Source: Anaerolineae bacterium (GTDB lineage Bacteria; Chloroflexota; Anaerolineae; Aggregatilineales; UBA3940). From it: 40,308 nt of DNA. The first letter of the stretch is position 1, and each line of letters opens with the position of its first letter. The DNA is taken from contig JAFGOY010000036.1 of NCBI GenBank assembly GCA_016926255.1, forward strand, positions 1 through 40,308. Reading direction: 5' to 3'. The notes under the pieces were generated by a model, which was not told the origin of the DNA, did no database searches, and saw nothing but the letters and a program-made list of their open reading frames with translations. A program made the translations under genes and the position numbers. This document shows positions 25,600 through 40,308 of this stretch, one piece after another.

Positions 25600-25670
25600 T
25601 ATCAAAAGACCACAATCTTTGATGACCACCGGCAGTTTCGCAGATTCGTTTTGATATCAAAAGTACACAA
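25600..25670. repeat. Direct repeat with embedded palindrome, possible operator
   Basis: TATCAAAAGACCACAA (25600-25615) and TATCAAAAGTACACAA (25655-25670) match at 14 of 16 bases, 55 bases apart (about five helical turns). The second copy is part of a perfect 14-bp palindrome TTTTGATATCAAAA (25649-25662). It is centred about 90 bases before the predicted transporter transcription start, a plausible regulator site. Confidence 0.45.
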
Positions 25671-26060: not shown

Positions 26061-27617
26061 ATGCGTAAACTATCCTATGCACTGATTGGCCTGTTGATCG
26101 TCGTTCTGGTCGTCGGCTGTGCCCCTTCACAAAAAGCCGAAGATATGAAGACGGTGATCATCGGCACCACCGATGAGATATCAAGCCTGGACTACAGTGA
26201 CGCGTACGCAGTCCATGACTGGGAATTGATGCGTAACTGCAACATCGGCTTGACCAACTACAAGCCCGGTACGGCTGAGATCGTAGAAGGCGTCGCCGAC
26301 AGTTGGGACATCAGCGATGATGGCCTGACTTATACATTCCATCTGGCCGACGGCTGGAAATATCCCGATGGCTCCGCTCTCAAAGCGGAAGACTTCGTGA
26401 CCACCGTCAATCGCGCCCTGGCGCTCGAAGGTGATATCCACGGCGTGGTTGCCACCTACGTAGCAAGCGTCGAAGCCCCTGATGACAAGACGGTCGTCTT
26501 CCACCTGGTCAACCCACGTGGCGACTTCCCACAAATCGTCAGTATGGGCCCCTTCATGCCCACGAAGGCCGGCGCTTATCCGGAAGATGAACTCAACCGC
26601 TTCCCGGACAAGCTGGTCGGTGTTGGCGCGTGGCAGATCACCGAATATGACCCGGCAGAGCAGGTCGTGCTTGAGCACAACCCCAACTACAAGCTGGGTT
26701 TTTCCGATACCGCGCCTGATCGCGTCATCGTCCGCTACTTCGAAGATGCCACCGCAATGGCACTCGCTATCGAAAACGGCGAAATCGACGTTGCCTGGCG
26801 TATTCTCGGCCCGCCTGAAGTTCAGCGCCTCGAAGAAGTTGACGGTCTGACCGTTATCAACACTGGCGGTGGTGGAATCCGTTATCTGGTGCCCAACCAC
26901 GCAATGGCCCCGTTCGATGACGTGAACGTACGTAAGGCCCTGGCCGCCCTCGTCGACCGTGATGAGATCGTCGACCGCGTGATGAAGGGTACCGTTGATC
27001 CGCTCTATTCGATGGTTCCTCCAGGGTTCCTGGCTGCCAACGAAGAATTCCTCACTATGTATAACGCGCCGAACATCGAGCTGGCAGAAGAACTGCTGAC
27101 CGCCTCAGGCTACAGTGCGGACGAACCTCTCACCTTCGATCTGTGGTATCCTCCGGAACACTACGGCACGCACGCTGCCCAGATCTTCCAGGTGCTCGAA
27201 GAGCAGTTCGAAGCCACCCCAATGATCCAGGTTACGCTCCAGACTCAGGAGTGGGGCACTTACATCCATGCACTGACCGACGGCGAATACCCGATCGGCT
27301 ATCTGGGCTGGTTCTTCGACTATCCCGACACCAGCAACTACCTGGACCCGTTCGCCGATTCGGTTGCTTCCCCAAGTATGGGTATCAGCTACGCGAACGA
27401 CACGATGGACCAACTGCTGCGGGATGCCGGTGCGAGCACCGATGTCGCCGAGCGTGAACAGCTCTACACCGATGCTCAGATACTTTACGCCGAAGATGTC
27501 GTGACCATCCCGCTCACCATGGAGCCGGAACATGTCGTCCTCATCGACGCGAAAGTGTCCAGTGTCACCATTGGCCCAGCTCTGGTCTTCAACTACGAGC
27601 TGATCGAACTCAAGTAA
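26061..27617 (+). CDS. ABC transporter substrate-binding lipoprotein, family 5 (peptide/nickel type)
   Basis: 518 residues. Signal peptide with lipobox V-V-G-C (Cys20). The body fits SBP_bac_5: MKTVIIGTTDEISSLDYSDA, GVADSWDISDDGLTYTFHLADGWKYPDGSALKAEDF, ALAALVDRDEIVDRVMKGT and YLGWFFDYPDTSNYLDPF. It captures a peptide or another solute outside the cell and delivers it to the permeases encoded next. The ligand cannot be deduced. GAGGAG lies about 11 bases before the ATG. It begins a five-gene operon with two permeases and two ATPases; a cluster of hairpins separates it from the first permease and would allow it to be made in excess. Confidence 0.92.
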   Translation: MRKLSYALIGLLIVVLVVGCAPSQKAEDMKTVIIGTTDEISSLDYSDAYAVHDWELMRNCNIGLTNYKPGTAEIVEGVADSWDISDDGLTYTFHLADGWKYPDGSALKAEDFVTTVNRALALEGDIHGVVATYVASVEAPDDKTVVFHLVNPRGDFPQIVSMGPFMPTKAGAYPEDELNRFPDKLVGVGAWQITEYDPAEQVVLEHNPNYKLGFSDTAPDRVIVRYFEDATAMALAIENGEIDVAWRILGPPEVQRLEEVDGLTVINTGGGGIRYLVPNHAMAPFDDVNVRKALAALVDRDEIVDRVMKGTVDPLYSMVPPGFLAANEEFLTMYNAPNIELAEELLTASGYSADEPLTFDLWYPPEHYGTHAAQIFQVLEEQFEATPMIQVTLQTQEWGTYIHALTDGEYPIGYLGWFFDYPDTSNYLDPFADSVASPSMGISYANDTMDQLLRDAGASTDVAEREQLYTDAQILYAEDVVTIPLTMEPEHVVLIDAKVSSVTIGPALVFNYELIELK

Positions 27618-27635
27618 TCTCACTGTGCAACACTT

Positions 27636-27724
27636 AACCCTGTCGGGCTGATCGATCGCCCGGCAGGGTTACTTAATTCATGTGACCCACAAAGTGGGTC
27701 CACGATGAAGCCCATATCATGGGC
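27636..27724 (+). other. Three consecutive hairpins between SBP and permease genes
   Basis: AACCCTGTCGGGC (27636-27648) / GCCCGGCAGGGTT (27658-27670), then GACCCAC-AAA-GTGGGTC (27684-27700), then GCCCAT-ATC-ATGGGC (27710-27724). None is followed by a convincing T run, so together they look like an mRNA-stabilising or partial-termination element rather than a full stop. Confidence 0.6.
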
Positions 27725-27784
27725 CAAACATATTGTGGTCCGACTATGTTGTCAGCCACACCATTTGACAGGAAAGCATCCGCT

Positions 27785-28888
27785 ATGCACATCTCCCCAT
27801 TAACCGGTATCTGCGCCAGTTCCCTCGGCGTTGCCCTGTTATTGATCGTCTATGCCTTCGTCCGGGGGAGTAAGGGGCTACGCAGTTATATCGTGACCCG
27901 TGTCCTGCTTACGCTGCCGATGGTCTTGATTCTCGTATCCGTCATCTTCTTTGTGATGAGGGTGATCCCCGGCGACCCGGTGACCAGCGAGCTTGGCCCG
28001 CGCGGAACCCCCCAGGCAAAGGAACGTATGCGGGAACAGTTGGGCCTGAACGACCCAATCATGGTGCAGTATGTCAAATACCTGGGGCGCGTCGTTCGCC
28101 TCGACCTGGGTACTTCCCTGGTTCAGGGCAATCGCCCGATTGTCGACGAATTGAGCGAGCGTCTACCGGCCACGCTTGAGCTGGTTGTCCCGGCGATGGT
28201 GGTAGCGGTCGGTTTTGGTGTGCTTTCGGGAACATTTGCCGCCGACAGGCGAAAACGGCCCTCCGATTACGGGCTGAGGCTTTTCAGTATTACCGTCTAC
28301 TCGATGCCGATCTTCTGGCTGGGCCTCATTTTACAAGTCATTTTCGGAGTGGGATTGGGGATCATGCCTGTGGCGGGGCGAATAGATGCCATCGTCAACA
28401 CGACATTGGATCGATACACCAACCTGCTCGTCGTCGACTCGATCATCACCGGGAACTGGGCGGCGCTTGGCAGTTCACTGCATCACCTTGTCCTGCCCGT
28501 GCTAACATTGGGACTGGCTCTGACGGGCGTCTTTGTCCGCATCAGCCGGATCAACGTAATCGAGTCACTGGTGGAAGACTACATACTGGCTGCCCGCGCA
28601 CGCGGCATCCGCGAACGGGTGGTCGTCTACCGCCACGCGCTGCTCAACGCCCTGATCCCGATCGTCACACTGATCGGCTTGCAGTTTTCCGTGCTGCTGG
28701 CCGGGGCTGTGCTGACCGAGACGACCTTTAGCTGGCCCGGAATGGGTCTCTACCTGGTCGAACGGATCGGTCAGCGCGATTACACCGCCGTGCAGGGGGT
28801 GATCACCGTATTTGCGATGTCGGTAGCGATCATCAGCCTGCTGACCGATATCATCTACGCGTTCCTCGACCCACGCGTGCGCTATTAA
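27785..28888 (+). CDS. ABC transporter permease, DppB/OppB type
   Basis: 367 residues. The DppB core starts at about residue 35: YIVTRVLLTLPMVLILVSVIFFVMRVIPGDPVTSELGPRG. The EAA-type cytoplasmic loop is VEDYILAARARGIRERVVVYRHALLNALIPIVT, and the C-terminus (DIIYAFLDPRVRY) is classical. Unusually, an extra hydrophobic segment (about residues 8-27, GICASSLGVALLLIVYAFVRG) precedes the normal first helix. The ATG at 27785 has AGGAAA 9 bases upstream; ATGs at 27719 and 27746 are less likely because they lie in or near the hairpin region. It pairs with the DppC-type gene 33 bases downstream. Confidence 0.88.
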   Translation: MHISPLTGICASSLGVALLLIVYAFVRGSKGLRSYIVTRVLLTLPMVLILVSVIFFVMRVIPGDPVTSELGPRGTPQAKERMREQLGLNDPIMVQYVKYLGRVVRLDLGTSLVQGNRPIVDELSERLPATLELVVPAMVVAVGFGVLSGTFAADRRKRPSDYGLRLFSITVYSMPIFWLGLILQVIFGVGLGIMPVAGRIDAIVNTTLDRYTNLLVVDSIITGNWAALGSSLHHLVLPVLTLGLALTGVFVRISRINVIESLVEDYILAARARGIRERVVVYRHALLNALIPIVTLIGLQFSVLLAGAVLTETTFSWPGMGLYLVERIGQRDYTAVQGVITVFAMSVAIISLLTDIIYAFLDPRVRY

Positions 28889-28921
28889 TTGAATGCTGCT
28901 TACTCATAGAAACTGATAAAT

Positions 28922-30175
28922 ATGACATCCACCGAACAAATCCCTATCGAAGATATTCCACAATGGCAAAAAGACCTGGATCAGGCCGGTTTCGTCAGAC
29001 GATTCCTGCTTGGCCGCCGCTGGTTTGGAGCTGACTGGTGGTTCGCCGTGATCAGCGGCGTGCTGCTCATATTCGTTTTCAGCATGGCGATCTTCCCCGG
29101 GCTTTATGCTCCCTTCGACCCACGCCAGGAAGTAGGCCCAGGGCAGCTTGCCCCCGGACAGATTCCCCCCACGTTTGTCCTGGTTGGGGAATCGGGCGGC
29201 GCGACCGAACTCGACGACCTGATCGGCGAAGATGTACGGATCGGCATTGTGATCGGGAGCGAGTCGGCCCAGGTTATGCGCGAGGTGGCCGAACAGCGGG
29301 AAGAAGAACTGAAGGCCGAGGGCCAGAATGTCATGCTGCGGCCCCGACCGGAGCGCTATGGGACTATCGAAGAGGCACTGGAAGGGCTGTCGAACGGCGA
29401 AGTTCCCGCCGTGATCGGCCTGAAAGACGAGATCGAACCGCTGCTCGTCAGCTATCCTGACCTGGTCATCGGCGAAGCATTGAGCGGCAACATCCAGAAG
29501 CCGTTTTTACTGGGAACCAACCAGATTGGACAGGACGTGCTCAGCCGGGTGATCTGGGGCACGCGGATCGCGCTGCTGGTCAGTTTTTCGGCAGCGCTGT
29601 TCTCACTCTTTGTCGGCGTCCCCCTGGGACTGATCGCCGGATTCTGGAGCGGCGGGCTTGAACGTGTCCTGACACTGGTCATGGACAGCCTGTATTCGTT
29701 CCCCGGTCTGATCCTGGCGATTGCGATCACCTCGGTGCTTGGGCCAGGGATCATGAACGTCATTGTCGCGATTGCTGTTCTTTACGTCCCAACCTACTAC
29801 CGGATCGTGCGCGGACAGACACTGGCCGTGAAGGAGGAATTATATGTCGAGGCTGCCTGGAGCCTGGGAGCGAGACCGTTCGCAATCCTGACGCGCTATA
29901 TTTTCCCCAACGTCATCCCGTCGATTGTCGTGATTTTCTCGGTCAATGTCGCCGATGCCATCCTTACCGAGGCGGGATTGAGTTTCATCGGCCTGGGTCT
30001 GCCGCCCGACACGCCGGACTGGGGGATTGATCTGGCCTCCGGGCAGAACTATATGCGCCAGGCCTGGTGGCTGATCACCTTCCCTGGCCTGATGGTGATG
30101 TTCGTAACGCTCGGTTTCAGTATGCTGGGCGAGAGCCTGAGCGAAATTCTGAACCCACGATTGACGGAGAACTGA
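28922..30175 (+). CDS. ABC transporter permease, DppC/OppC type, with a large extracytoplasmic insertion
   Basis: 417 residues; usual DppC proteins are about 280-320. The first helix (about 40-60) is followed by the normal LYAPFDPRQ, but the loop to the second helix (LLGTNQIGQDVLSRVIWGTRIALLV, from about 197) contains about 110 extra residues (83-192). That segment reads TELDDLIGEDVRIGIVIGSE, then YGTIEEALEGLSNGEVPAVIGL and YPDLVIGEALS, the pattern of the second lobe of SBP_bac_3 solute-binding proteins. The rest is standard: EAA loop AAWSLGARPFAILTRYIFPNVIPS and ending LSEILNPRL. DppD follows after 5 bases. Confidence 0.88.
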   Translation: MTSTEQIPIEDIPQWQKDLDQAGFVRRFLLGRRWFGADWWFAVISGVLLIFVFSMAIFPGLYAPFDPRQEVGPGQLAPGQIPPTFVLVGESGGATELDDLIGEDVRIGIVIGSESAQVMREVAEQREEELKAEGQNVMLRPRPERYGTIEEALEGLSNGEVPAVIGLKDEIEPLLVSYPDLVIGEALSGNIQKPFLLGTNQIGQDVLSRVIWGTRIALLVSFSAALFSLFVGVPLGLIAGFWSGGLERVLTLVMDSLYSFPGLILAIAITSVLGPGIMNVIVAIAVLYVPTYYRIVRGQTLAVKEELYVEAAWSLGARPFAILTRYIFPNVIPSIVVIFSVNVADAILTEAGLSFIGLGLPPDTPDWGIDLASGQNYMRQAWWLITFPGLMVMFVTLGFSMLGESLSEILNPRLTEN

Positions 30176-30180
30176 CCATC

Positions 30181-31185
30181 ATGGCAAACAACACCTTACT
30201 CAACATCGAAAACCTGTCTGTAGAATACAAGACACGCATGGGATGGGTCAGCGCCGTAGACGACGTCTCGATGGAGATCAGGCAGGGCGAAATCCTGGGA
30301 TTGGTCGGTGAGAGCGGCTGCGGGAAAAGCACCCTGGGTAAAGCCCTCCTGCGAATCAACCCACCCTCAGCCCGGATATCCGGCCATTTGTGGTTTCATG
30401 GCGAAGACCTGATGACCCTCGACGACGAAGCGATGCGTCAAATCCGGGGACAGCGCATCAGCATGATCTTCCAGGACCCGATGACTTCACTCAACCCGAT
30501 CCAGCGAATGGGTGATCACCTGATCGAAACAATCCTGACCCACGAGCCGGAGGTCGGCAAAGAGGAAGCCCGCGAACGGGCGGCGGCACTCGTCGACCGG
30601 CTGGGCATCTCGTCGAACCGGCTGGACGACTACCCACACCAGCTTTCGGGGGGAATGCGCCAGCGGGTAATGATCGGACTGGCGCTGGCGCTCAACGCTG
30701 ACCTGATCGTCGCCGACGAAGCGACCACCTCGCTTGACGTGATCGTCGAGGCGCAGTTCGTCGAACTATTGAAAGAACTGCGGGATGAGTTCAACCTCAC
30801 GATTCTGCTGATCACTCACAATATCGGGCTGGTCGCCGAGATTTCTGACCGGGTGGCGGTGATGTATGCCGGTAGAATGGCCGAACTCTCCGACGCGCGA
30901 AGCGTCTTCAAAGAAACACTGCATCCTTATACTCAGGGATTGTTGAAAGCCGTTCCCAATATCCAGATCGACGACGATGAAGAACTCTACATGATGGGCG
31001 GCTCCCCGCCCGACCTGGTCGAGCCGCCGATGGGCTGCCGCTACCACCCGCGCTGTCCGAAAGTCATGCCGGTCTGCGCAGCAGAACCCTCACATTTTCT
31101 GGAGTCAAAACCCGATCATTTCGTGAACTGCTGGCTGTATGAAGACATCCCGGCGGAGTACGCGGACAAGGAACTTAGCGAATGA
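30181..31185 (+). CDS. ABC transporter ATP-binding protein, DppD/OppD type
   Basis: 334 residues. Walker A GESGCGKST (43-51), Q-loop region FQDPMTSLNP, signature LSGGMRQRV, Walker B LIVADEATTSLDV, H-loop ITHN. The C-terminal oligopeptide/dipeptide domain carries GCRYHPRCPKVMPVC, a cysteine region often associated with an Fe-S site in this family. DEATTSLDV replaces the common DEPTTALDV. The ATG at 30181 was chosen: a longer frame begins inside the upstream permease, but GGAGA precedes this ATG and the protein then starts at the family position. It overlaps the next ATPase by 4 bases. Confidence 0.93.
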   Translation: MANNTLLNIENLSVEYKTRMGWVSAVDDVSMEIRQGEILGLVGESGCGKSTLGKALLRINPPSARISGHLWFHGEDLMTLDDEAMRQIRGQRISMIFQDPMTSLNPIQRMGDHLIETILTHEPEVGKEEARERAAALVDRLGISSNRLDDYPHQLSGGMRQRVMIGLALALNADLIVADEATTSLDVIVEAQFVELLKELRDEFNLTILLITHNIGLVAEISDRVAVMYAGRMAELSDARSVFKETLHPYTQGLLKAVPNIQIDDDEELYMMGGSPPDLVEPPMGCRYHPRCPKVMPVCAAEPSHFLESKPDHFVNCWLYEDIPAEYADKELSE

Positions 31186-32216
31186 GCGATCAGAATCACG
31201 ACGTTTTGGTACAGGTCAAAGGACTGACAAAACACTATCCAATACAACAGGATTTCATCTCACGGTTGCTGTCAGCCGAAGAAGCGAAAAAGGTGCGTGC
31301 GGTCGACGGAGTTGAATTCGACATCCGGCGGGGCGAAGTGTTCGGGCTGGCCGGAGAAAGTGGCAGCGGCAAAACAACCGTCGGACGGCTGGTGCTGCGC
31401 CTGACAGACCCAACAGAGGGCGACATTATTTTCGACGGGGTTAACATCGCTCGGTTATCAAATGAAGATATGCGCCAGATGCGCGCCCGTATGCAGATCA
31501 TCTTCCAGGATCCGTTTGCCTCGCTGAACCCGCGCATGCGGATCGGTGACGGGATCGGGCATGGTGTAAAAATCCACTCCGACGCCACCGCCACCGAACG
31601 AAGGACGGTTGTCGAAACGATGATGGAATATGTCGGGCTGACCCCCGCCAAACTTTACTACGAGAAATACCCACACCAGTTGTCGGGCGGACAGCGCCAG
31701 CGAGCGGTCATCGCCCGCGCGCTCGTCACCCGGCCAGAGCTGGTCGTCGCTGACGAGCCGATTGCGATGGCCGATGTCTCGGTGCGCGCCCTGCTGCTCG
31801 AATTGATGATCAGGCTGAAGGAAGATTTCAATCTGACCTACCTGTTCATCACCCATGACCTGGCAACCGCCAAGTACATCTGTGACCGGATCGGCATCAT
31901 GTACCTGGGCAAGCTCGTCGAAGTGGGCGATCTCCGGGATGTCTATACCCATCCCAGCCACCCTTATACCGACGCGCTGCTGGAAGCCGTCCCGGTGCCC
32001 GACCCCGAATCCAGGCACGAGAAGCCGCTGCCAAAGGGTGAAATCCCTAACCCAATCGATCCCCCTTCGGGCTGCCGGTTCCACCCTCGCTGCCCGTTGG
32101 CAGTGGATGTCTGCTCGGAGATCGAACCCGAATTACGCCCGGTAGAGGGCAGCACAGGTCACCTGGCCGCCTGCCATCTGACCACCGGGGATTACCGGCA
32201 TCTGGCACCTAAATAA
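31182..32216 (+). CDS. ABC transporter ATP-binding protein, DppF/OppF type
   Basis: 344 residues. Walker A GESGSGKTT (58-66), Q-loop FQDPFASLNP, signature LSGGQRQRA, Walker B LVVADEPIAMADVSVRA, H-loop ITHDLATAKYICDR. The C-terminal domain has GCRFHPRCPLAVDVC. The D-loop reads AMADVS rather than SALDVS; related transporters of archaea and Thermotoga-like bacteria show M-x-D forms, so activity is probably kept. It forms a heterodimer with the preceding DppD-type ATPase. It is the last gene of the operon and is closed by the terminator at 32239. Confidence 0.92.
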   Translation: MSDQNHDVLVQVKGLTKHYPIQQDFISRLLSAEEAKKVRAVDGVEFDIRRGEVFGLAGESGSGKTTVGRLVLRLTDPTEGDIIFDGVNIARLSNEDMRQMRARMQIIFQDPFASLNPRMRIGDGIGHGVKIHSDATATERRTVVETMMEYVGLTPAKLYYEKYPHQLSGGQRQRAVIARALVTRPELVVADEPIAMADVSVRALLLELMIRLKEDFNLTYLFITHDLATAKYICDRIGIMYLGKLVEVGDLRDVYTHPSHPYTDALLEAVPVPDPESRHEKPLPKGEIPNPIDPPSGCRFHPRCPLAVDVCSEIEPELRPVEGSTGHLAACHLTTGDYRHLAPK

Positions 32217-32296: not shown

Positions 32297-35200
32297 CTAT
32301 ATGGTGATCTTGCGCCGACGGCCTTTCATCAGCCGATAGGCGAGGTAGACCAGCAGCCCGACTCCGGCGACCCAATACCATCTGGATAGGAAGTTAAGGG
32401 CCTTGCCGCCTGTGCCGGGTAGTTCTTCGGGGTAGATTTCAACCGAACCTTCAATCTCTGCGCTGCCGAGATCGGTAAGCAGTTCGGCGATGTTCCAGGC
32501 GGTTCCTGGAGGGCCGGAAATCACACGGGTGACAATTGAGATTGTCACCGTTTCGCCAGGGTTCATCAGGCCGATAGTGGCGGTCACCGTTTGGCCGCTG
32601 ATATTCACCGTCCCCTTACTGCTAGAGGCGCTTTCAACCGAAAACTGCGGATCGACCGTATCGCTGATAACTGCATGGGGATAAGGCACACTGGAGGGAT
32701 TCCTTACGGTAATCACCCAGGTGATTGTTTCCCCAATGGCTGCAAACGCCGGGTCGCCCAGTTTGACTATACCGGGGTCAAACACAAAGAGAGAAGGCGG
32801 GATGGCAGACGCAGGGGCACTGGCTCCGATCCTTCCACCACCGCCCTTTTTGAGGATCGTTAACGTATCCGTGTTATAAAGCGTCGAGACGCCCGTTTCA
32901 GTTGACGTCAGGTATGCAGGCGTGTTGTTATAGACACCCTCGACATCACCGGTGACAACAACGTCAAACTCGCAGACATGGCCGCCAGTCGCGGTCGCCG
33001 GCACCGGGGCCGGGTCTAAAGTTCCCCCGGTGAGATGAATTTCATCGGTGCCAGGGACAGCCACCAGTGCGCCGCCGCAGACAGGATCGACCGGGCCGCT
33101 GACAATTGTCAGACCGGCAGGCAGGATATCGATGAACTCAATACCGGTCAGGCCACCCGGATAGGTGGCGGCTGAATTCGGGTTAACCATTGTGAAAGTC
33201 AGAGTCGTCGACTCATATCTGTAGATTTGATCGGGATCAAACTCCTTCACCACCGCCAGGGTGTCTGCCACGATCAACGCGGCATTGGCCGTCAGCCCGG
33301 GGCCAGTTTCGGTCGAATTGACATTGCTGGTCACATTGTCATACACACCGATCACTGCCCCCAGAATGTCAACTGTAAGCTGGCATTCACGAGGAGTGTC
33401 ATCAGGTTCGGCATCATCAATCGACAATCCCGCAACAATGATATCCCTGGTGCCGGGGATCGCCGTTATAACAGCGGTTCCACCGCCGCAGTCCCCGCTG
33501 GCCGTGATGTTAGCCGGGTTGTTGATTTCAAGCCCAACCGGGAGTTGGTCGGTAAAGGTGATGTTGGTCAGGTCGGTTTCCGGGTTTGGATTGGTCAGCG
33601 TGAAGGTCAGTGTAGAGACATCACCCTGCGAGATGACCGTCGGAGCAAAGTCCTTGTCGATGGTCAAATCGATCCCGGTCATCGCAACAGTGTCCCAGTC
33701 ATCGTTGCCGCTGTCGGTGCTGTCATCCCCAAGTTCAGTCCGATCATCGTAGACACGCTCATCAGCAGTCGTACCGGGCTGCGTCGACCAGTCCACGTCG
33801 GCGTAGTTGTCCAGCACCGCACCCAGTGGCATCGACTGGAGAACCTCTCCCCGGAAGACAATCGGCCCGGCGTTGTCGCCAGCCGCTACACTGGCGATGT
33901 TGAAAGTCACCGTTTGCCCACCGGCAGTGACATCCCCGGTCACGGTAGGGGTAATCGAGACTTCACCAACGTCCTGAGTTCCGTTGCCATTATCATCGAT
34001 GAAGGCCGAGCCGGTGACATACTGGATATGCTCCGGCAGCGCATCTTCGATCACAACCTCGTAGGCTTCAGATTCGCCGTTGTTGGTCGAACCGATGCTG
34101 TAGAGAACGAAATCGCCACGTCGCGGTCGCTGAACCGTTCTAAGGGTCACACCATCCGACTCATAGATCGCCGGGATTGCCTTGGTCGTCACGAAATACG
34201 GCTGGTCGATATCCACACTGGCACTGCCCAGATCAAAGGAGGCGTCGGCCCCCGTTTCATCAATGAATTGGAAAGTCGCCGTGTCGTTGCTGGTCATGTC
34301 GGTCTGGGTTGGCGGCAACCAATAGTAGCCACTATCGAAGATATCCTGATTGGTAACCATCACTTCGACGGAGACGGTAAACCCGCAGGCGGCACCACCA
34401 GTGTCGTTATCAATCGGGCCTGGGAACGTCCAGATGATCTCCGTGCCGGTGTCCGGGCTGGGGTTGAACGGATTGATTGTATGCCCCGTCCAGAAAGCTG
34501 AAGTCGAACTGAGATCGGTTCCGCTGCAATTAGTCGAGGAGACCAGTTGATCCGACCCAGGAACAGGGTATACGCCATTTTCATTATTGTAGAAGTCCCT
34601 GACAGACACTGTTCCTGTGGTGGGGTCTTCATAAGCGGTCGTATATGGCGGTATCACCACAGTAAATTCGACCTCGTAGGTGCTGCCAACAGACACCGTG
34701 CCGGGGGTTGCCGACTTTCCACCACTTGAGGCGATGCGGGCAGTGGCCTCATTGCTGAAGCCCTCCAGCGGCTGGTCAGATGGAGAAGTATGATCAGGGC
34801 CGCCCTCTTCGCCTGCATAGTTAAACAGCGTCGACTCGTTAGTGATCAACGTGTTTGGAGCAACCCCGGGCTTGATATGCAGATCATAGGTGATAATGAT
34901 CAGGTTTTTACCGGGGCCAACTGAATGGGCCTGGCAGGCACCCGTCGCATCATCGACGATTTCGATGCCGTTGCCGAAGATATCGTCCGCCGTGTTGTCT
35001 ATACCATCCGGGCCACCGCCCAGACCATACCAGTGCAGCGGCGACAACCCATCCGTCGTGTCGGGGTCGTGCGGGATGTTGGTCGTATCGCCGTAGGATA
35101 CCTGTAGGTTTAACTCATTATCAAAACGGGTTGGATTGCCGGGAGGAGCACTGGCCGGATCGGGGATTTCATACTGGGCAGTTTGCAACTCGTCCCTGAT

Positions 35201-37957
35201 CCGCAGGTCGAATGCGCCGTTAACGCTGGTGCCGGAGTTATGGATCATGATCGCAAAGGTGACCATATCGTCGCCTTCTACCTGGGTAATGTTAGCGTCG
35301 ATATATGGCACACTGTTGGAGTTATTGAATACCCCCCCGCTCCAGGAAGGTGGGGTTCCATCGGTGCCGGAAGGCGAGAAAGTGACCGTGCTGCCATCCT
35401 GGGCTAATGCCGGGGGGTCCGGATTGTAAGTAGGGGCGCTGGTCGCGGATTCGGACTGGAAGGCAACCACACCCTTTGTCGATACAAGCACCGGTTGAGT
35501 CAGGATCACCCAGGCTATGGCCTCGCTGCTCTCCGTCACCGCCAGCGTATTATTGTCCGACTGCTGTACCATGTTCGAGAGGTACAGTTCATCGGCAAAA
35601 GGCTCGTTGGATGCCTGAATGGTGAACAGCAGTTCAATCAGTGCTCCCTGGTTCGGGTCTTCCTCGTGATCGCCAAATTCCCATTGAATCAGGTTTTCGG
35701 GTTCACTGGTGGTAACGGCAGGAGTAGATGCACCGCTCAAAACCGTGTGATATTCGTCATTCGACCCCCAGGCCCACTGGCCTACCGGTGGAATTGTCCC
35801 ATCAGCGGCCTGCGTCCAGGTATGTCCTCCGGTGCCATCGGCGTCCGGGTCTTCAGCAAAGAAGATCGGCAGAGGAAGATACTCGGTGAGCTTGAGGTCT
35901 TCGAAGTCGCCAAACAGCAGTTCGTACCGGATGCGATAGGTGATCGTATCACCCGGCGTGATTCCGAACGCCGCACCGGGGGGAACAGTTGTACCAAGCG
36001 CTGTACCATTGTGGGCATAGATAACCTTGCTTGGTTCGTTGCCGGGTACGGTAGCGGTCTCACCGCTGTCGTCATCCTCACTTTCACCGGTCGTGCCGGT
36101 GCACGGTGCTGGGGTGCAGGTAGCGGTATCGAGCAAATTACCTGCAATCGCTACAGTATTTGATACTTCGTCACCCTGGTTGACGTTCTCATCGCCGGGA
36201 TACAGGCTGGGAACATCAAATTCCTGCTGAATGACGGTTCGGAAAACGACCCGGCCAGTGGTTGCGCCGTCGTTTGCCCCGCCGCCGTCAGCAACCAGGC
36301 CGCCTAACAACTGTGCGGAACGACTGTGAGCACCGCCAGCATCTTCGAGCTGATCCGAGACATTGAAAATCAGTTCGATGCGGCCCTGAGCATCGCGCGT
36401 GCCGTTGTCGTATGAGAAATGGGCAGGCAAGAAATCACCGGAAATGGTCGCCCCATTTTCGGTGACAGAAAGCGTCGGCGTAAAACCGGTATCGACAATG
36501 TGTCCGTCGGAGACGTAATCGGTCAGGACGATATCTTCGAAAGCAAAGTAGTCGGATACCTGGAAGTCGATAGTCCATTCGAGGGTTGCATCCGGAACCG
36601 GATCACCCCCGCCGACTACCGAAACCGATTTCTGGGTAGCGATTGACTTGTCTTCTACCTCACAGGGAGGCACACAGACCCCGTTCTGGGTGAAAGTGTC
36701 CGGATCGTCGTCCGGGTCAGTTGGTGTCCAATCAAACTCGCCTTCGATGTCGTTGGAAGTCAGCGAGTTGGTAGCTGCACTCGCATCATCGCCGGAAGTC
36801 GGGTCGATGATGTCGTCGCCATCGGCGTTTTGATCGGGCACATAGAACACGATCTCAAAAGTGATATCTTCACTGCCCGAACCACCTTCGATATCATCCC
36901 CCCAACTGATCGTGATTTCGTTGTCGGGCGCATTAGCCGGGCCAAAGGGGAAGCCGCCGCCACCTGATACACTTACGGTTGGCGCGCCAGCCGGGGGTGT
37001 GGCTGCATCGGGATAGGCAAAACTCCCGACGGAGGTCACGACAATGTTGTTATCTATTGCATCGACGATTGTCAGGGATTCGGCAACCTGCCCCTCGGCG
37101 ATATCGACCGTCACCGTCCAGATACGTTCGAAGTTGGGGCCGGTGGCGGTTTCAATGCCTTCCAAACCATCATGGTCTTTTTCGATATCGACCACAGCCG
37201 GGGAAACCGGGCTGCCATCCCATGTCGTAGCGTCGAAATCGGGTTCGCTGTAGGTAGTGATATCACCGCAGCACCAGTCATTGAGTGGGGTGTTGCCATA
37301 GCGGAACCCACCACGGGTGCGAATGACCAAGTCTTCGCCAAGATTAGCAAAATCGCTCAGGCTGGCTTTGACCGTCACTTCAAGGTCAGGCTGGGTAGGA
37401 GTGAAACTACCAAAGGGCAGTTCGATCACCACCAGTTTGTCGCCTTCTTCACCTTCTACATCAGCATGGTAACCACTGCTGTCAAATGCGTAGGGATGGC
37501 TGACCACACCCGAAGCGGGAAAAGTCAGAACGGTAACATTCAGCTCCTGGCCCAGGTACGTGGCGATCGGGGCGGAACCGACATCGATCCCATCGCCATC
37601 GCCATCGCCACCGGCAGTAGGCAGATAAACATCAATGAACGGGCCATAACCCGGATCGGAGCCAGCATTAGTGAAAGTTACCGTGAAGGTAAAATCGGCA
37701 CCAAGCATCACCGTATCAGGGACATCCAGCGATACCTCGGCCACGCCATCATACAAAGGCCGAACGATACTTTCTTCGGGGATCAGTGAAGCCGGGACAG
37801 AGTCAGCCGTTAACGCAGCCTCCACCATAGCATCAACATCCCCGGCGGCGGCTGTGACAATTGCCGGACTCCCCATTAGCATGACAAACAAAAACACGAT
37901 AGCTTGAGCCAATCGTGATACCCGAACAGGCACTCTTATCCTTGATTTGCCGATCAT
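32297..37957 (-). CDS. Giant repeat-built surface protein with LPGTG sorting signal
   Basis: 1886 residues. A signal peptide is at about 15-38 (hydrophobic core AIVFLFVMLMG). The body is roughly nine tandem immunoglobulin-like/DUF11-type units beginning near residues 65, 256, 439, 643, 823, 1083, 1256, 1435, 1571 and 1709. Typical phrases are TWVITVRNPSSVPYPHAVIS and TLTFTLTNPNPETDLTNITF. DGDGDGID near the N-terminus and DDNGNGTQDVGE near 1290 look like calcium sites. The C-terminus is a sortase-type signal: LPGTG at 1846-1850, a hydrophobic helix and a basic tail KGRRRK. It is predicted to be an extracellular adhesin or stalk covalently or membrane anchored. AGGAAAAG precedes the ATG. No sortase is in the window. 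Confidence 0.88.
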   Translation of the reverse strand: MIGKSRIRVPVRVSRLAQAIVFLFVMLMGSPAIVTAAAGDVDAMVEAALTADSVPASLIPEESIVRPLYDGVAEVSLDVPDTVMLGADFTFTVTFTNAGSDPGYGPFIDVYLPTAGGDGDGDGIDVGSAPIATYLGQELNVTVLTFPASGVVSHPYAFDSSGYHADVEGEEGDKLVVIELPFGSFTPTQPDLEVTVKASLSDFANLGEDLVIRTRGGFRYGNTPLNDWCCGDITTYSEPDFDATTWDGSPVSPAVVDIEKDHDGLEGIETATGPNFERIWTVTVDIAEGQVAESLTIVDAIDNNIVVTSVGSFAYPDAATPPAGAPTVSVSGGGGFPFGPANAPDNEITISWGDDIEGGSGSEDITFEIVFYVPDQNADGDDIIDPTSGDDASAATNSLTSNDIEGEFDWTPTDPDDDPDTFTQNGVCVPPCEVEDKSIATQKSVSVVGGGDPVPDATLEWTIDFQVSDYFAFEDIVLTDYVSDGHIVDTGFTPTLSVTENGATISGDFLPAHFSYDNGTRDAQGRIELIFNVSDQLEDAGGAHSRSAQLLGGLVADGGGANDGATTGRVVFRTVIQQEFDVPSLYPGDENVNQGDEVSNTVAIAGNLLDTATCTPAPCTGTTGESEDDDSGETATVPGNEPSKVIYAHNGTALGTTVPPGAAFGITPGDTITYRIRYELLFGDFEDLKLTEYLPLPIFFAEDPDADGTGGHTWTQAADGTIPPVGQWAWGSNDEYHTVLSGASTPAVTTSEPENLIQWEFGDHEEDPNQGALIELLFTIQASNEPFADELYLSNMVQQSDNNTLAVTESSEAIAWVILTQPVLVSTKGVVAFQSESATSAPTYNPDPPALAQDGSTVTFSPSGTDGTPPSWSGGVFNNSNSVPYIDANITQVEGDDMVTFAIMIHNSGTSVNGAFDLRIRDELQTAQYEIPDPASAPPGNPTRFDNELNLQVSYGDTTNIPHDPDTTDGLSPLHWYGLGGGPDGIDNTADDIFGNGIEIVDDATGACQAHSVGPGKNLIIITYDLHIKPGVAPNTLITNESTLFNYAGEEGGPDHTSPSDQPLEGFSNEATARIASSGGKSATPGTVSVGSTYEVEFTVVIPPYTTAYEDPTTGTVSVRDFYNNENGVYPVPGSDQLVSSTNCSGTDLSSTSAFWTGHTINPFNPSPDTGTEIIWTFPGPIDNDTGGAACGFTVSVEVMVTNQDIFDSGYYWLPPTQTDMTSNDTATFQFIDETGADASFDLGSASVDIDQPYFVTTKAIPAIYESDGVTLRTVQRPRRGDFVLYSIGSTNNGESEAYEVVIEDALPEHIQYVTGSAFIDDNGNGTQDVGEVSITPTVTGDVTAGGQTVTFNIASVAAGDNAGPIVFRGEVLQSMPLGAVLDNYADVDWSTQPGTTADERVYDDRTELGDDSTDSGNDDWDTVAMTGIDLTIDKDFAPTVISQGDVSTLTFTLTNPNPETDLTNITFTDQLPVGLEINNPANITASGDCGGGTAVITAIPGTRDIIVAGLSIDDAEPDDTPRECQLTVDILGAVIGVYDNVTSNVNSTETGPGLTANAALIVADTLAVVKEFDPDQIYRYESTTLTFTMVNPNSAATYPGGLTGIEFIDILPAGLTIVSGPVDPVCGGALVAVPGTDEIHLTGGTLDPAPVPATATGGHVCEFDVVVTGDVEGVYNNTPAYLTSTETGVSTLYNTDTLTILKKGGGGRIGASAPASAIPPSLFVFDPGIVKLGDPAFAAIGETITWVITVRNPSSVPYPHAVISDTVDPQFSVESASSSKGTVNISGQTVTATIGLMNPGETVTISIVTRVISGPPGTAWNIAELLTDLGSAEIEGSVEIYPEELPGTGGKALNFLSRWYWVAGVGLLVYLAYRLMKGRRRKITI

Positions 37958-38146: not shown

Positions 38147-39406
38147 TTATCGAGGTTGATACTGGCCGTTCTCCTGATGCAGCCAACCTGTCGGCTGGCT
38201 GAGCACCTTACGATAAACGGTGGCAATCCCTCCGATAGCGCATGAATCGGTGCCATGCGAGGCAATTGCGATCTCACAGGCCTGACTTGACCAACGAAGC
38301 GCACGCCGGGATACAATCTCTGTCACAACTGGCAAAAAGAACTCATGCCCCAAACTCAGAGTCCCGCCTATCACCGTGCATTCAGGATTAAGGGTATTGA
38401 TTAAACCAGCCAACCCTATCCCCAGCCAGTAGCCGATCTTCTCAAAGCTTTGCAAGGCAACGATATCGCCTTGCTGGGCGGCCTGCACAATCATCGGAAC
38501 GGTCAGCCGATCAAAATTTCCACCGGTGGCGGTCGACAATATGGATGTGCTGCCAGCCAGAATCGCCTCTTTGACATATCGGAACAGCGCACGCTGGCTG
38601 ACGAGCGTTTCCCAGCATCCCCGGTTACCACAATTACATTCGAGTCCATCCGGATCGATTGTCATATGGCCAATTTCCCCGGCGAAGCCCAGCGCGCCCG
38701 GCAGAAGCTGCCCGTTAAGCACAATCCCGCCTCCCAATCCAACCCCCACGTTAATGTAGATCAATGAGTCACTATCTTGGCCCACTCCGAAATAATTCTC
38801 ACCAAGTGCGGCCATGTTTGCTTCATTGTCAATGAAGAATGGAACATTCAATTCATGTTCCAGCAATGTCCGTAGTGGAACTCCGGTCCAGCCCAGGTTT
38901 GGAGCAAAGATCAGAGTTCCGTCCGCGTCATCGACCAGGCCGGGTACTCCCAGCCCGATACCAAAAAATGGCCGCTGGTTTCGAGCAACTTCCTGGTAAC
39001 CTTCTTTAAGAAGTCTGATGAGACGATTCAGGATTTCTTCCTGAGATTTTAACTGAAGAGTGCTCTCATACCGGCGGGCCAGTATCTCGGCGGCAAAATT
39101 TGTCACGATGACTGATATGAAGTCAACGCCTAATTCTGCGCCGATGATATACCCTGCTTCCGGGTTAAGTTCAAGGTTGATCGCCGGGCGCCCAATGTCA
39201 GAGGAGGTGGTATCAATCCCGATCTCGCGAACCAGCCCTTTTTGTAGAAGCTCCCTAACCAGGCTGGACACGGTCGCTTTGTTCAGACCGGTCATATTGG
39301 ACAGGCCAGAGCGGGCAATGGGGGCATGCAAACGTAAAGTAGTCAGCACGAGAGCTAGATTCATTTCACGCATCGTGGTATGATCAACTGACTTTAACTT
39401 TGGCAT
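38147..39406 (-). CDS. ROK-family transcriptional repressor, XylR-like
   Basis: 419 residues. An N-terminal winged helix-turn-helix (about 12-62: MREMNLALVLTTLRLHAPI, then SGLSNMTGLNKATVSSLVRELL) is fused to a ROK sugar-sensing domain. The ROK zinc motif CNCGNRGC is at about 255. The sugar-kinase phosphate motif D-x-G-x-T is degenerate (ELGVDFI), so it is a repressor, not a kinase. GVPGLVDDADGTLIFAPNLGW is the usual ROK segment. XylR of Bacillus belongs to this group and releases its operator on binding xylose. Palindromes over its own predicted start and over that of the divergent xylF-like gene support autoregulation and xylose specificity (inference). AGGA lies about 12 bases upstream of the ATG. 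Confidence 0.87.
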   Translation of the reverse strand: MPKLKSVDHTTMREMNLALVLTTLRLHAPIARSGLSNMTGLNKATVSSLVRELLQKGLVREIGIDTTSSDIGRPAINLELNPEAGYIIGAELGVDFISVIVTNFAAEILARRYESTLQLKSQEEILNRLIRLLKEGYQEVARNQRPFFGIGLGVPGLVDDADGTLIFAPNLGWTGVPLRTLLEHELNVPFFIDNEANMAALGENYFGVGQDSDSLIYINVGVGLGGGIVLNGQLLPGALGFAGEIGHMTIDPDGLECNCGNRGCWETLVSQRALFRYVKEAILAGSTSILSTATGGNFDRLTVPMIVQAAQQGDIVALQSFEKIGYWLGIGLAGLINTLNPECTVIGGTLSLGHEFFLPVVTEIVSRRALRWSSQACEIAIASHGTDSCAIGGIATVYRKVLSQPTGWLHQENGQYQPR

Positions 39407-39546
39407 CCTGGTGTTCCTTGGAATGTAAACATTGGCTGATGCAGCCAGCTACATTCCGTGAATTTTTGATAAGTGGAAATTATACTAACAGGGCCTACTC
39501 AGAGTCAGGAGGCATACCGATTTCCACATAAATTCAGATGCCGTCC

Positions 39547-39579
39547 ATTAGTTTTCAATACCAACTAATTGTTATTAGT
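39547..39579. promoter_or_regulatory. ROK-type operator cluster at the repressor promoter
   Basis: Three half-sites: ATTAGTT (39547-39553), AACTAAT (39563-39569) and ATTAGT (39574-39579). The first pair forms a 23-bp inverted repeat; the second pair forms ACTAAT-TGTT-ATTAGT. They lie at and just downstream of the predicted repressor start near 39573, where a bound protein would block its own transcription. Confidence 0.6.
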
Positions 39580-39608
39580 AGTCTATGTTGGTTAAGAAAA
39601 CAAGTCAA
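39580..39608 (-). promoter_or_regulatory. Promoter of the ROK repressor gene
   Basis: Minus strand TTGACT (39608-39603), exactly 17 bases, TAGACT (39585-39580). Predicted start near 39573, leader about 165 bases. Confidence 0.65.
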
Positions 39609-39640
39609 GCATTTGCAGTCAACCAGTCAATATGGCGCTA

Positions 39641-39670
39641 TTTGTCATATAGCCATAGTGACAAATGTCA
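39641..39670. promoter_or_regulatory. Possible activator site upstream of xylF promoter
   Basis: TTTGTCA (39641-39647) and TGACAAA (39659-39665) form an inverted repeat with an 11-base spacer; TGACA-AA-TGTCA (39659-39670) is a second, overlapping palindrome. Centres are about 73 and 61 bases before the predicted xylF start, positions typical of activators such as CRP-type regulators. The protein is unknown. Confidence 0.4.
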
Positions 39671-39688
39671 TATTAATGGGTTAAAATA

Positions 39689-39718
39689 TTGACATAAACT
39701 GGCATTCCTATGAATACT
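39689..39718 (+). promoter_or_regulatory. Promoter of the xylF-like gene
   Basis: Perfect TTGACA (39689-39694), 18-base spacer, AATACT (39713-39718). The -10 is mediocre, consistent with a regulated promoter; predicted start about 39725. Confidence 0.5.
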
Positions 39719-39723
39719 AAAGG

Positions 39724-39748
39724 TTAGTTTGTGTTATCAACATACTAA
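39724..39748. promoter_or_regulatory. xylO-like operator at the xylF transcription start
   Basis: A 25-bp inverted repeat with outer arms TTAGTTTGT (39724-39732) and ACATACTAA (39740-39748). It has the length and arms of the Bacillus XylR operator as remembered (arms TTAGTTTGT and ACAAACTAA), agreeing at about 20 of 25 positions. ACTAA-AGG-TTAGT (39716-39728) overlaps its left arm. It covers the predicted start, the classic place for repression. Confidence 0.65.
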
Positions 39749-40040
39749 TGCGTTCCGCTTACACAAAACCCTTAGATACGTAAAGCTCGAAACCAAAAAC
39801 TAGAATTAACGCTTTATTTGAGGTGTACCGCTAAATCTGCGGGGTTACACGACACGATGGTCCAACACAGTCAGACCCCTAAGAGAAAAATACCCCCAAC
39901 TTGTCTATTACCTGTGGTGTAAGAAGCAGAAGTAAAGTCTGCAGCTAGTTTGAGAGGAGGTACAAAGGCCGCCAATTCAAAAATAATGTAGACCTGTATT
40001 GAAGTGCTCAAATGTTTTTAAAAACCTTTGGAGGATAAGA

Positions 40041-40308
40041 ATGCAACACAGAGTCTTTCGCTCAATCCTATTCGTCATCTTGCTTTTGATGGCTGTGGGA
40101 ATCATGGTGGGTTGCAAGGGCACCCCAGCAGTCGAAGAGCCGGCTGAAGAAGAAGCCGCCGAAGAAACCGTTGAAGAAGCCGCTGAAGAACCGGCAGAAG
40201 AACCGGCAGAAGCGACAGGGGTGAAAGTCGGTCTGTCATTCTCTGACTTCGCCACCGAGCGTTGGAAGAACGAAGAAGTCCTCATGCGCGGTCTGCTCGA
40301 AGACATGG
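40041..40308 (+). CDS. xylF: D-xylose ABC transporter substrate-binding lipoprotein, XylF-like (partial, 3' end outside window)
   Basis: The first 89 residues are visible. A lipoprotein signal with lipobox M-V-G-C (Cys25) is followed by a low-complexity E/A/P linker (about 31-59). The mature domain then begins VKVGLSFSDFATERWKNEEV, closely resembling the XylF start (V-K-I-G-x-x-x-x-D-x-x-x-E-R-W). XylF-type proteins bind xylose outside the membrane for the XylGH importer, whose genes should follow beyond the window. GGAGGA (40030-40035) lies 5 bases before the ATG. The specificity call rests on this short stretch plus the divergent ROK repressor and xylO-like operator; another sugar-binding family 1 protein (ribose- or glucose-type) is possible. 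Confidence 0.75.
   Translation, partial: MQHRVFRSILFVILLLMAVGIMVGCKGTPAVEEPAEEEAAEETVEEAAEEPAEEPAEATGVKVGLSFSDFATERWKNEEVLMRGLLEDM

Follow-up and report, generated by a model that had tools for sequence, protein, structure and literature searches.

We propose that a XylR-type repressor of the ROK family, encoded in a genome of the Chloroflexota, binds a 21-bp palindrome at the promoters of xylR, xylF and xylB and is released from it by xylose, a reading in which, judged from sequence and gene context, we have considerable confidence. The window, by which we mean the whole stretch of 40,308 nucleotides that was analysed, is the entire contig C60 of a 4.61-Mb genome in 82 contigs, and in it a gap of 634 bp separates the ROK repressor gene from the divergent xylF start (Table 1). 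In the switch that we envisage, the repressor would bind TTNGTTT-N7-AAACNAA a short distance past the -10 boxes of xylR, xylF and xylB. When xylose is absent, it would keep transcription of xylFGHA and xylB from initiating or from getting through early elongation and, through the site at the xylR promoter, would restrain its own production; binding of xylose to the ROK domain would make it leave the DNA. With its single unit, xylR could be autoregulated more mildly, and the double unit at xylF could hold transport under tighter control. A sequence-only reading of this DNA had claimed that a single ROK repressor of XylR type serves both divergent promoters through operators over each of them, and that the operator code is conserved with the Firmicutes. 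Comparison with related loci supports the first claim and, for one Firmicute, the sharing of operator letters: L034, a Natronobacillus ROK gene near a xylB-like gene (41%), carries the arms of the 25-bp site without mismatch.

Table 1. Predicted genes, promoters and candidate operators of the divergent repressor/xylF pair, in window positions.
Feature	Positions	Strand	Description
ROK repressor gene, xylR-like	38147..39406	-	419 aa, N-terminal helix-turn-helix (segment TGLNKATVSSLV) and ROK domain
O_R, operator at repressor promoter	39548..39568	.	single 21-bp unit TTAGTT-N9-AACTAA, 11/12 to TTNGTTT-N7-AAACNAA
Third half-site ATTAGT	39574..39579	+	between -10 box and O_R; judged probably chance
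Predicted repressor promoter	39580..39608	-	TTGACT (39608-39603), 17 nt, TAGACT (39585-39580); 11 nt upstream of O_R
Weak unit pair at 39584 and 39588	39584..39608	.	9/12 each, 4 bp apart, over repressor promoter
Predicted xylF promoter	39689..39718	+	TTGACA (39689-39694), 18 nt, AATACT (39713-39718); 5 nt upstream of O_F
O_F, operator at xylF promoter	39724..39748	.	25 bp, TTAGTTTGT-N7-ACATACTAA; two 21-bp units, 39724-39744 and 39728-39748, 10/12 each
xylF, D-xylose-type substrate-binding lipoprotein	40041..40307	+	first 89 codons; truncated by contig end

The window protein matches the ROK family strongly (PF00480, 235 bits, 1.3e-69) and a MarR-type helix weakly (1.8e-4, below cut-off). PDB entry 1z05, named a ROK transcriptional regulator, aligns with it over residues 7-374, and it reads DNEAN where the kinase 2qm1 has DNDAN, the Asp of which we take to be the kinase catalytic residue. 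A ROK domain, an N-terminal helix-turn-helix and a missing kinase catalytic Asp together mark it as a predicted member of the ROK-family repressors. Against the XylR reading, it falls far below the NCBIfam equivalog cut-offs among those compared, and the PDB entries score 100 bits for 4ija (named XylR), 165 for Lmo0178 and 184 for a glucokinase. It is 34% identical to the Natronobacillus ROK and up to 37% identical to other Bacillus ROKs; in a tree without any characterised XylR, L034 joins the side with the GLNK helix (support 100) on a very long branch (2.07). For the predicted repressor, gene context makes xylose the best assignment. The xylF fragment by itself gave no match in family profile searches; it shares 61% identity with residues 1-92 of the L006 xylF, which scores 281 bits to TIGR02634, below the 390-bit cut-off. 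A search of Rfam with 39300-40308, at E up to 1, returned nothing, leaving the xylF leader of about 290 nt without a known RNA element at that level.

The half-sites quoted in the sequence-only reading lie where it had placed them (ATTAGTT at 39547-39553, AACTAAT at 39563-39569, ATTAGT at 39574-39579 and TTAGTTTGTGTTATCAACATACTAA at 39724-39748). It had put the 25-bp site at the xylF start, but the site begins 317 nt upstream of the ATG, near the predicted transcription start. It had also called two different spacings unusual. We suggest instead that both fit a single 21-bp unit, TTNGTTT-N7-AAACNAA, which combines in this analysis the B. subtilis XylR consensus TTNGTTT-AAACNAA with its GTTT-N7-AAAC core, both as given in the part of PMC9104551 drawn on here. 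Units of at least 10/12 begin in the window at 25645, 39548 (11/12), 39724 and 39728 (10/12 each); the last two are exactly 4 bp apart, an arrangement that chance would produce in the gap with probability 0.001. The unit would stand alone at the repressor and occur twice, offset by 4 bp, at xylF, and the 25-bp form can be read as two such overlapping units, an arrangement shared by 23 of 35 related loci. At those 23 a second unit (at least 9/12) lies no more than 12 bp from the best, 16 times at +4 and 7 times at -4, an excess that is partly built in because the pattern overlaps itself at 4/12 positions when shifted by 4 bp, and the loci are also related; at the 22 other offsets within 12 bp no second unit was found among the 35. 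(The 35 exclude the window, repeats and loci whose best unit is below 10/12, L006 among them.) Dahl and co-workers are said to have described, in 1994, tandem overlapping xyl operators in B. subtilis, and the shifted double unit here matches such operators as reported for Bacillus.

Alternatively, the spacings could represent two separate dimer geometries read by a flexible repressor, with the third half-site participating. We regard this as unlikely, though it has points in its favour: the repressor promoter carries only the 21-bp form, the xylF site is symmetric around the 25-bp centre (8/12 pairs), and exact 25-bp outer arms recur in L109 and L170, the former with a poor 21-bp reading. Against it stands the confinement of further units to the +4 and -4 offsets just described, itself partly an effect of self-overlap, and the poor pairing of the third half-site. 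The ATTAGT that the sequence-only reading counted as a third half-site is present, but its operator role does not hold up: across spacers of 5-17 its partners reach 8/12 at N9 and at best 9/12, at N13 and N17, and with no partner above 9/12 it is unsupported as an operator and is probably a chance occurrence. The weak pair at 39584/39588 might be an auxiliary operator; under the null a pair of this kind would arise in the gap with probability 0.02. A genome scan for TTAGTT-N11..15-AACTAA returned none, since the arms are in fact separated by 9 nt, or by 13 where one arm base is altered.

Both operators follow closely on predicted -10 boxes. Taken alone, the promoter scan of the window is weak (4 promoter-like sites against 1.9 expected), and the predicted repressor promoter matches the consensus at 9/12. 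At xylF, the promoter arrangement TTGACA-N17/18-nATACT-N5-operator recurs in the window, in L006 and in L007. Promoter scores were averaged over 29 operator sites (31 minus 2 that were repeats or too close to a contig end, the window counted). With 4 nt between the end of the -10 and the operator the mean is 6.5 of 12, with 5 nt it is 6.4, and each of these distances has 6 sites scoring at least 9/12; most other distances average about 4.2. The mean is equally high, 6.5, at distance -1, where the -10 overlaps the first base of the operator, presumably because the -10 then includes the operator's first T. O_R, 11 nt from its -10, falls outside the 4-5 nt layout. With operators just downstream of a predicted -10, the repressor would occupy the start site or the DNA just past it, as in Bacillus; the part of PMC9104551 drawn on here places the B. 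subtilis xyl operator between the -10 and the ribosome-binding site and describes a roadblock mechanism.

A search of the genome for the motif near other xyl genes, which had been proposed beforehand, gave three further sites (21-mer, at most one mismatch), and one of them precedes xylB. It lies at C17:66602-66622, about 125 nt before xylB and 4 nt after TATGAT, and the gene encodes a xylulokinase (TIGR01312, 576 bits, cut-off 380). Two sites are on C1, and none of five xyl queries matches the sequence retrieved there. Read inward from one end, C49 carries the C-terminus of a xylF-like gene, then xylG, xylH and xylA. The xylF-like tail is 73% identical to residues 277-398 of L006, the best models for xylG and xylH score below their cut-offs, and xylA is a xylose isomerase (TIGR02631, 584 bits, cut-off 447). 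The natural reading, which we infer from this order, is that xylF of C60 and xylGHA of C49 form one xylFGHA operon split by the assembly. A second xylF-type gene, on C45 (L149, G000:C45, 2-2258), adjoins a LacI-type regulator truncated by the contig start, with a lone TTAGTTTTTT half-site in the stretch between them.

Among related proteins, the ROKs of L006 (67% identity), L007 (56%) and L116 (54%) are divergent from xylose genes like that of the window: from xylFGH in L006 and L007, which are the nearest found and whose records are named Anaerolineales and Chloroflexi, and from xylA-xylB in L116. The four fall within one clade of 11 members (SH-aLRT 97) and are those for which xyl-gene neighbours were established. 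The searched flanks of five other members gave no homolog of xylA, xylB or xylF; one of these five, L117, has a generic xylG-like ATPase in its flank (41%). The members L163 and L165 lay outside the flank search, and the L014 and L163 proteins are identical. The 21-mer with at most one mismatch occurs at 1, 2 and 2 places in the genomes of L116, L006 and L007, against 3, 12 and 19 per strand for the controls. The L006 and L007 searches recovered the ROK/xylF region, and the other sites in the three genomes have no xyl gene within about 1.5 kb on each side (less at contig ends). Downstream of xylA in L158 (8178-8936) lies the gene for a protein of 252 aa, whose residues 9-59 and 126-193 give MerR-type matches.

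The presence of the operator follows the type of recognition helix. Within 350 bp upstream of the ROK gene, a site with at most one mismatch (N9 or N13) occurs at 31 of the 46 loci whose helix is GLNK-like, at 4 of the 66 whose helix is TPP-type and at none of 6 others (Fisher p 3e-12 for GLNK-like versus TPP-type, the rows being related and not independent). The count covers 118 of 119 loci, L139 having been dropped for too short an upstream stretch. The remaining 15 GLNK-like loci have no such site in the 350 bp scanned; the best site has 2 mismatches at L116, beside xylAB, and 3 at L142, beside xylFGH-type genes. Upstream of the ROK genes L012-L085 the operator is mostly absent and most have the TPP-type helix; these TPP-helix ROKs are probably not XylR.

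It could also be that the ROK repressor uses these operators and responds to another sugar, such as glucose or a xyloside, which we consider improbable. The same operator is carried by L119, whose ROK is 52% identical and adjoins an ABC transporter of the SBP_bac_1 type, so that the motif alone does not imply xylose; at most of the other operator-bearing loci in the order the sequence retrieved gave no homolog of xylA, xylB or xylF; and XylR of T. maritima responds in vitro to glucose too, at higher concentration, according to the part of PMC3750489 used here. Weighing against another inducer, the closest relatives adjoin xylFGH or xylAB, xylB has a site at its promoter, and the presumed operon closes with the xylose isomerase gene. 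The operator seems, on these sequences, common to ROKs of more than one sugar (Pfam was run on the neighbours of L119, L014, L126 and L116 only). We would go further only tentatively, at somewhat less than even odds, and suggest that Chloroflexota ROKs for different sugars share a GLNKxTVSS-like helix and the 21-bp unit, present once or twice with a 4-bp shift and often 4-5 nt past the -10. If such a family exists, there may be cross-talk within a cell, with paralogs acting on one another's operators.

That the motifs are chance, or belong to another regulator, is hardly credible: one-mismatch versions are indeed no commoner than the control in the genome, but the exact forms turned up in 4 and 0 of 20,000 simulated gaps, and similar sites precede the same repressor gene in relatives. 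The gaps were simulated with a first-order Markov model from the 634-bp gap; the 4 belong to exact TTAGTT-N9-AACTAA, the 0 to the 25-mer (A or T permitted at one arm base), and the two together were likewise found in none. In the 4.61-Mb genome the 25-mer arms with at most 3 mismatches occur at one place, the window site, and the 21-mer with at most one mismatch at 4 distinct places, the window's copy being exact; the controls, in which the pattern was reversed, yielded 2 and 6 per strand, and mismatched copies alone therefore mean little.

The predicted XylR-type switch thus appears ordinary in kind and well supported in detail, an instance of conservation and not a new type of system, and for the specialist it would be expected more than surprising. 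It resembles Bacillus XylR as a ROK repressor of xyl genes with the same operator consensus and core; unlike Bacillus XylR, it lies in a Chloroflexota genome, and its partners are a xylFGH ABC transporter, xylA of the TIGR02631 type and xylB, encoded separately. It would extend the Bacillus-type XylR switch to the Chloroflexota, with a predicted regulon of xylR, xylFGHA and xylB; the operator letters would be conserved along with the recognition helix, and the two half-site spacings receive a simple reading. Lmo0178 of Listeria, Mlc and NagC-like proteins align over the helix-turn-helix and the ROK domain (PDB 5f7p, 1z6r, 3bp8). They serve other sugars, and Mlc and NagC also have other operators. 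XylR of T. maritima, also a ROK protein, regulates genes for xylose transport and catabolism, with sites validated in vitro and xylose as inducer; its regulon, as described in the part of PMC3750489 used here, is larger and includes xylan genes. The comparison with it covers protein family, regulon and inducer. A literature search by title and abstract opening gave no paper on this regulon in Chloroflexota; RegPrecise lay outside that search, and a prior listing is possible.

Between the two promoters the window also holds an inverted repeat with perfect 8-bp arms, ATTTGTCA-N11-TGACAAAT at 39640-39666, and TGTCATAT occurs twice, 23 bp apart. These repeats may be the site of another regulator, or chance. 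A pair like the repeat, as a candidate activator site, is absent in L149 and L158, which have single TTTGTCA/TGACAAA words only, and L159 has none. Beyond the gap, 32297-37957 (minus strand) encodes an 1886-aa surface-type protein with matches to DUF7933, DUF11 and an isopeptide-forming fimbrial domain, and 26061-32216 (plus strand) holds an oligopeptide-type ABC transporter gene row of SBP_bac_5, two permeases and two ATPases.
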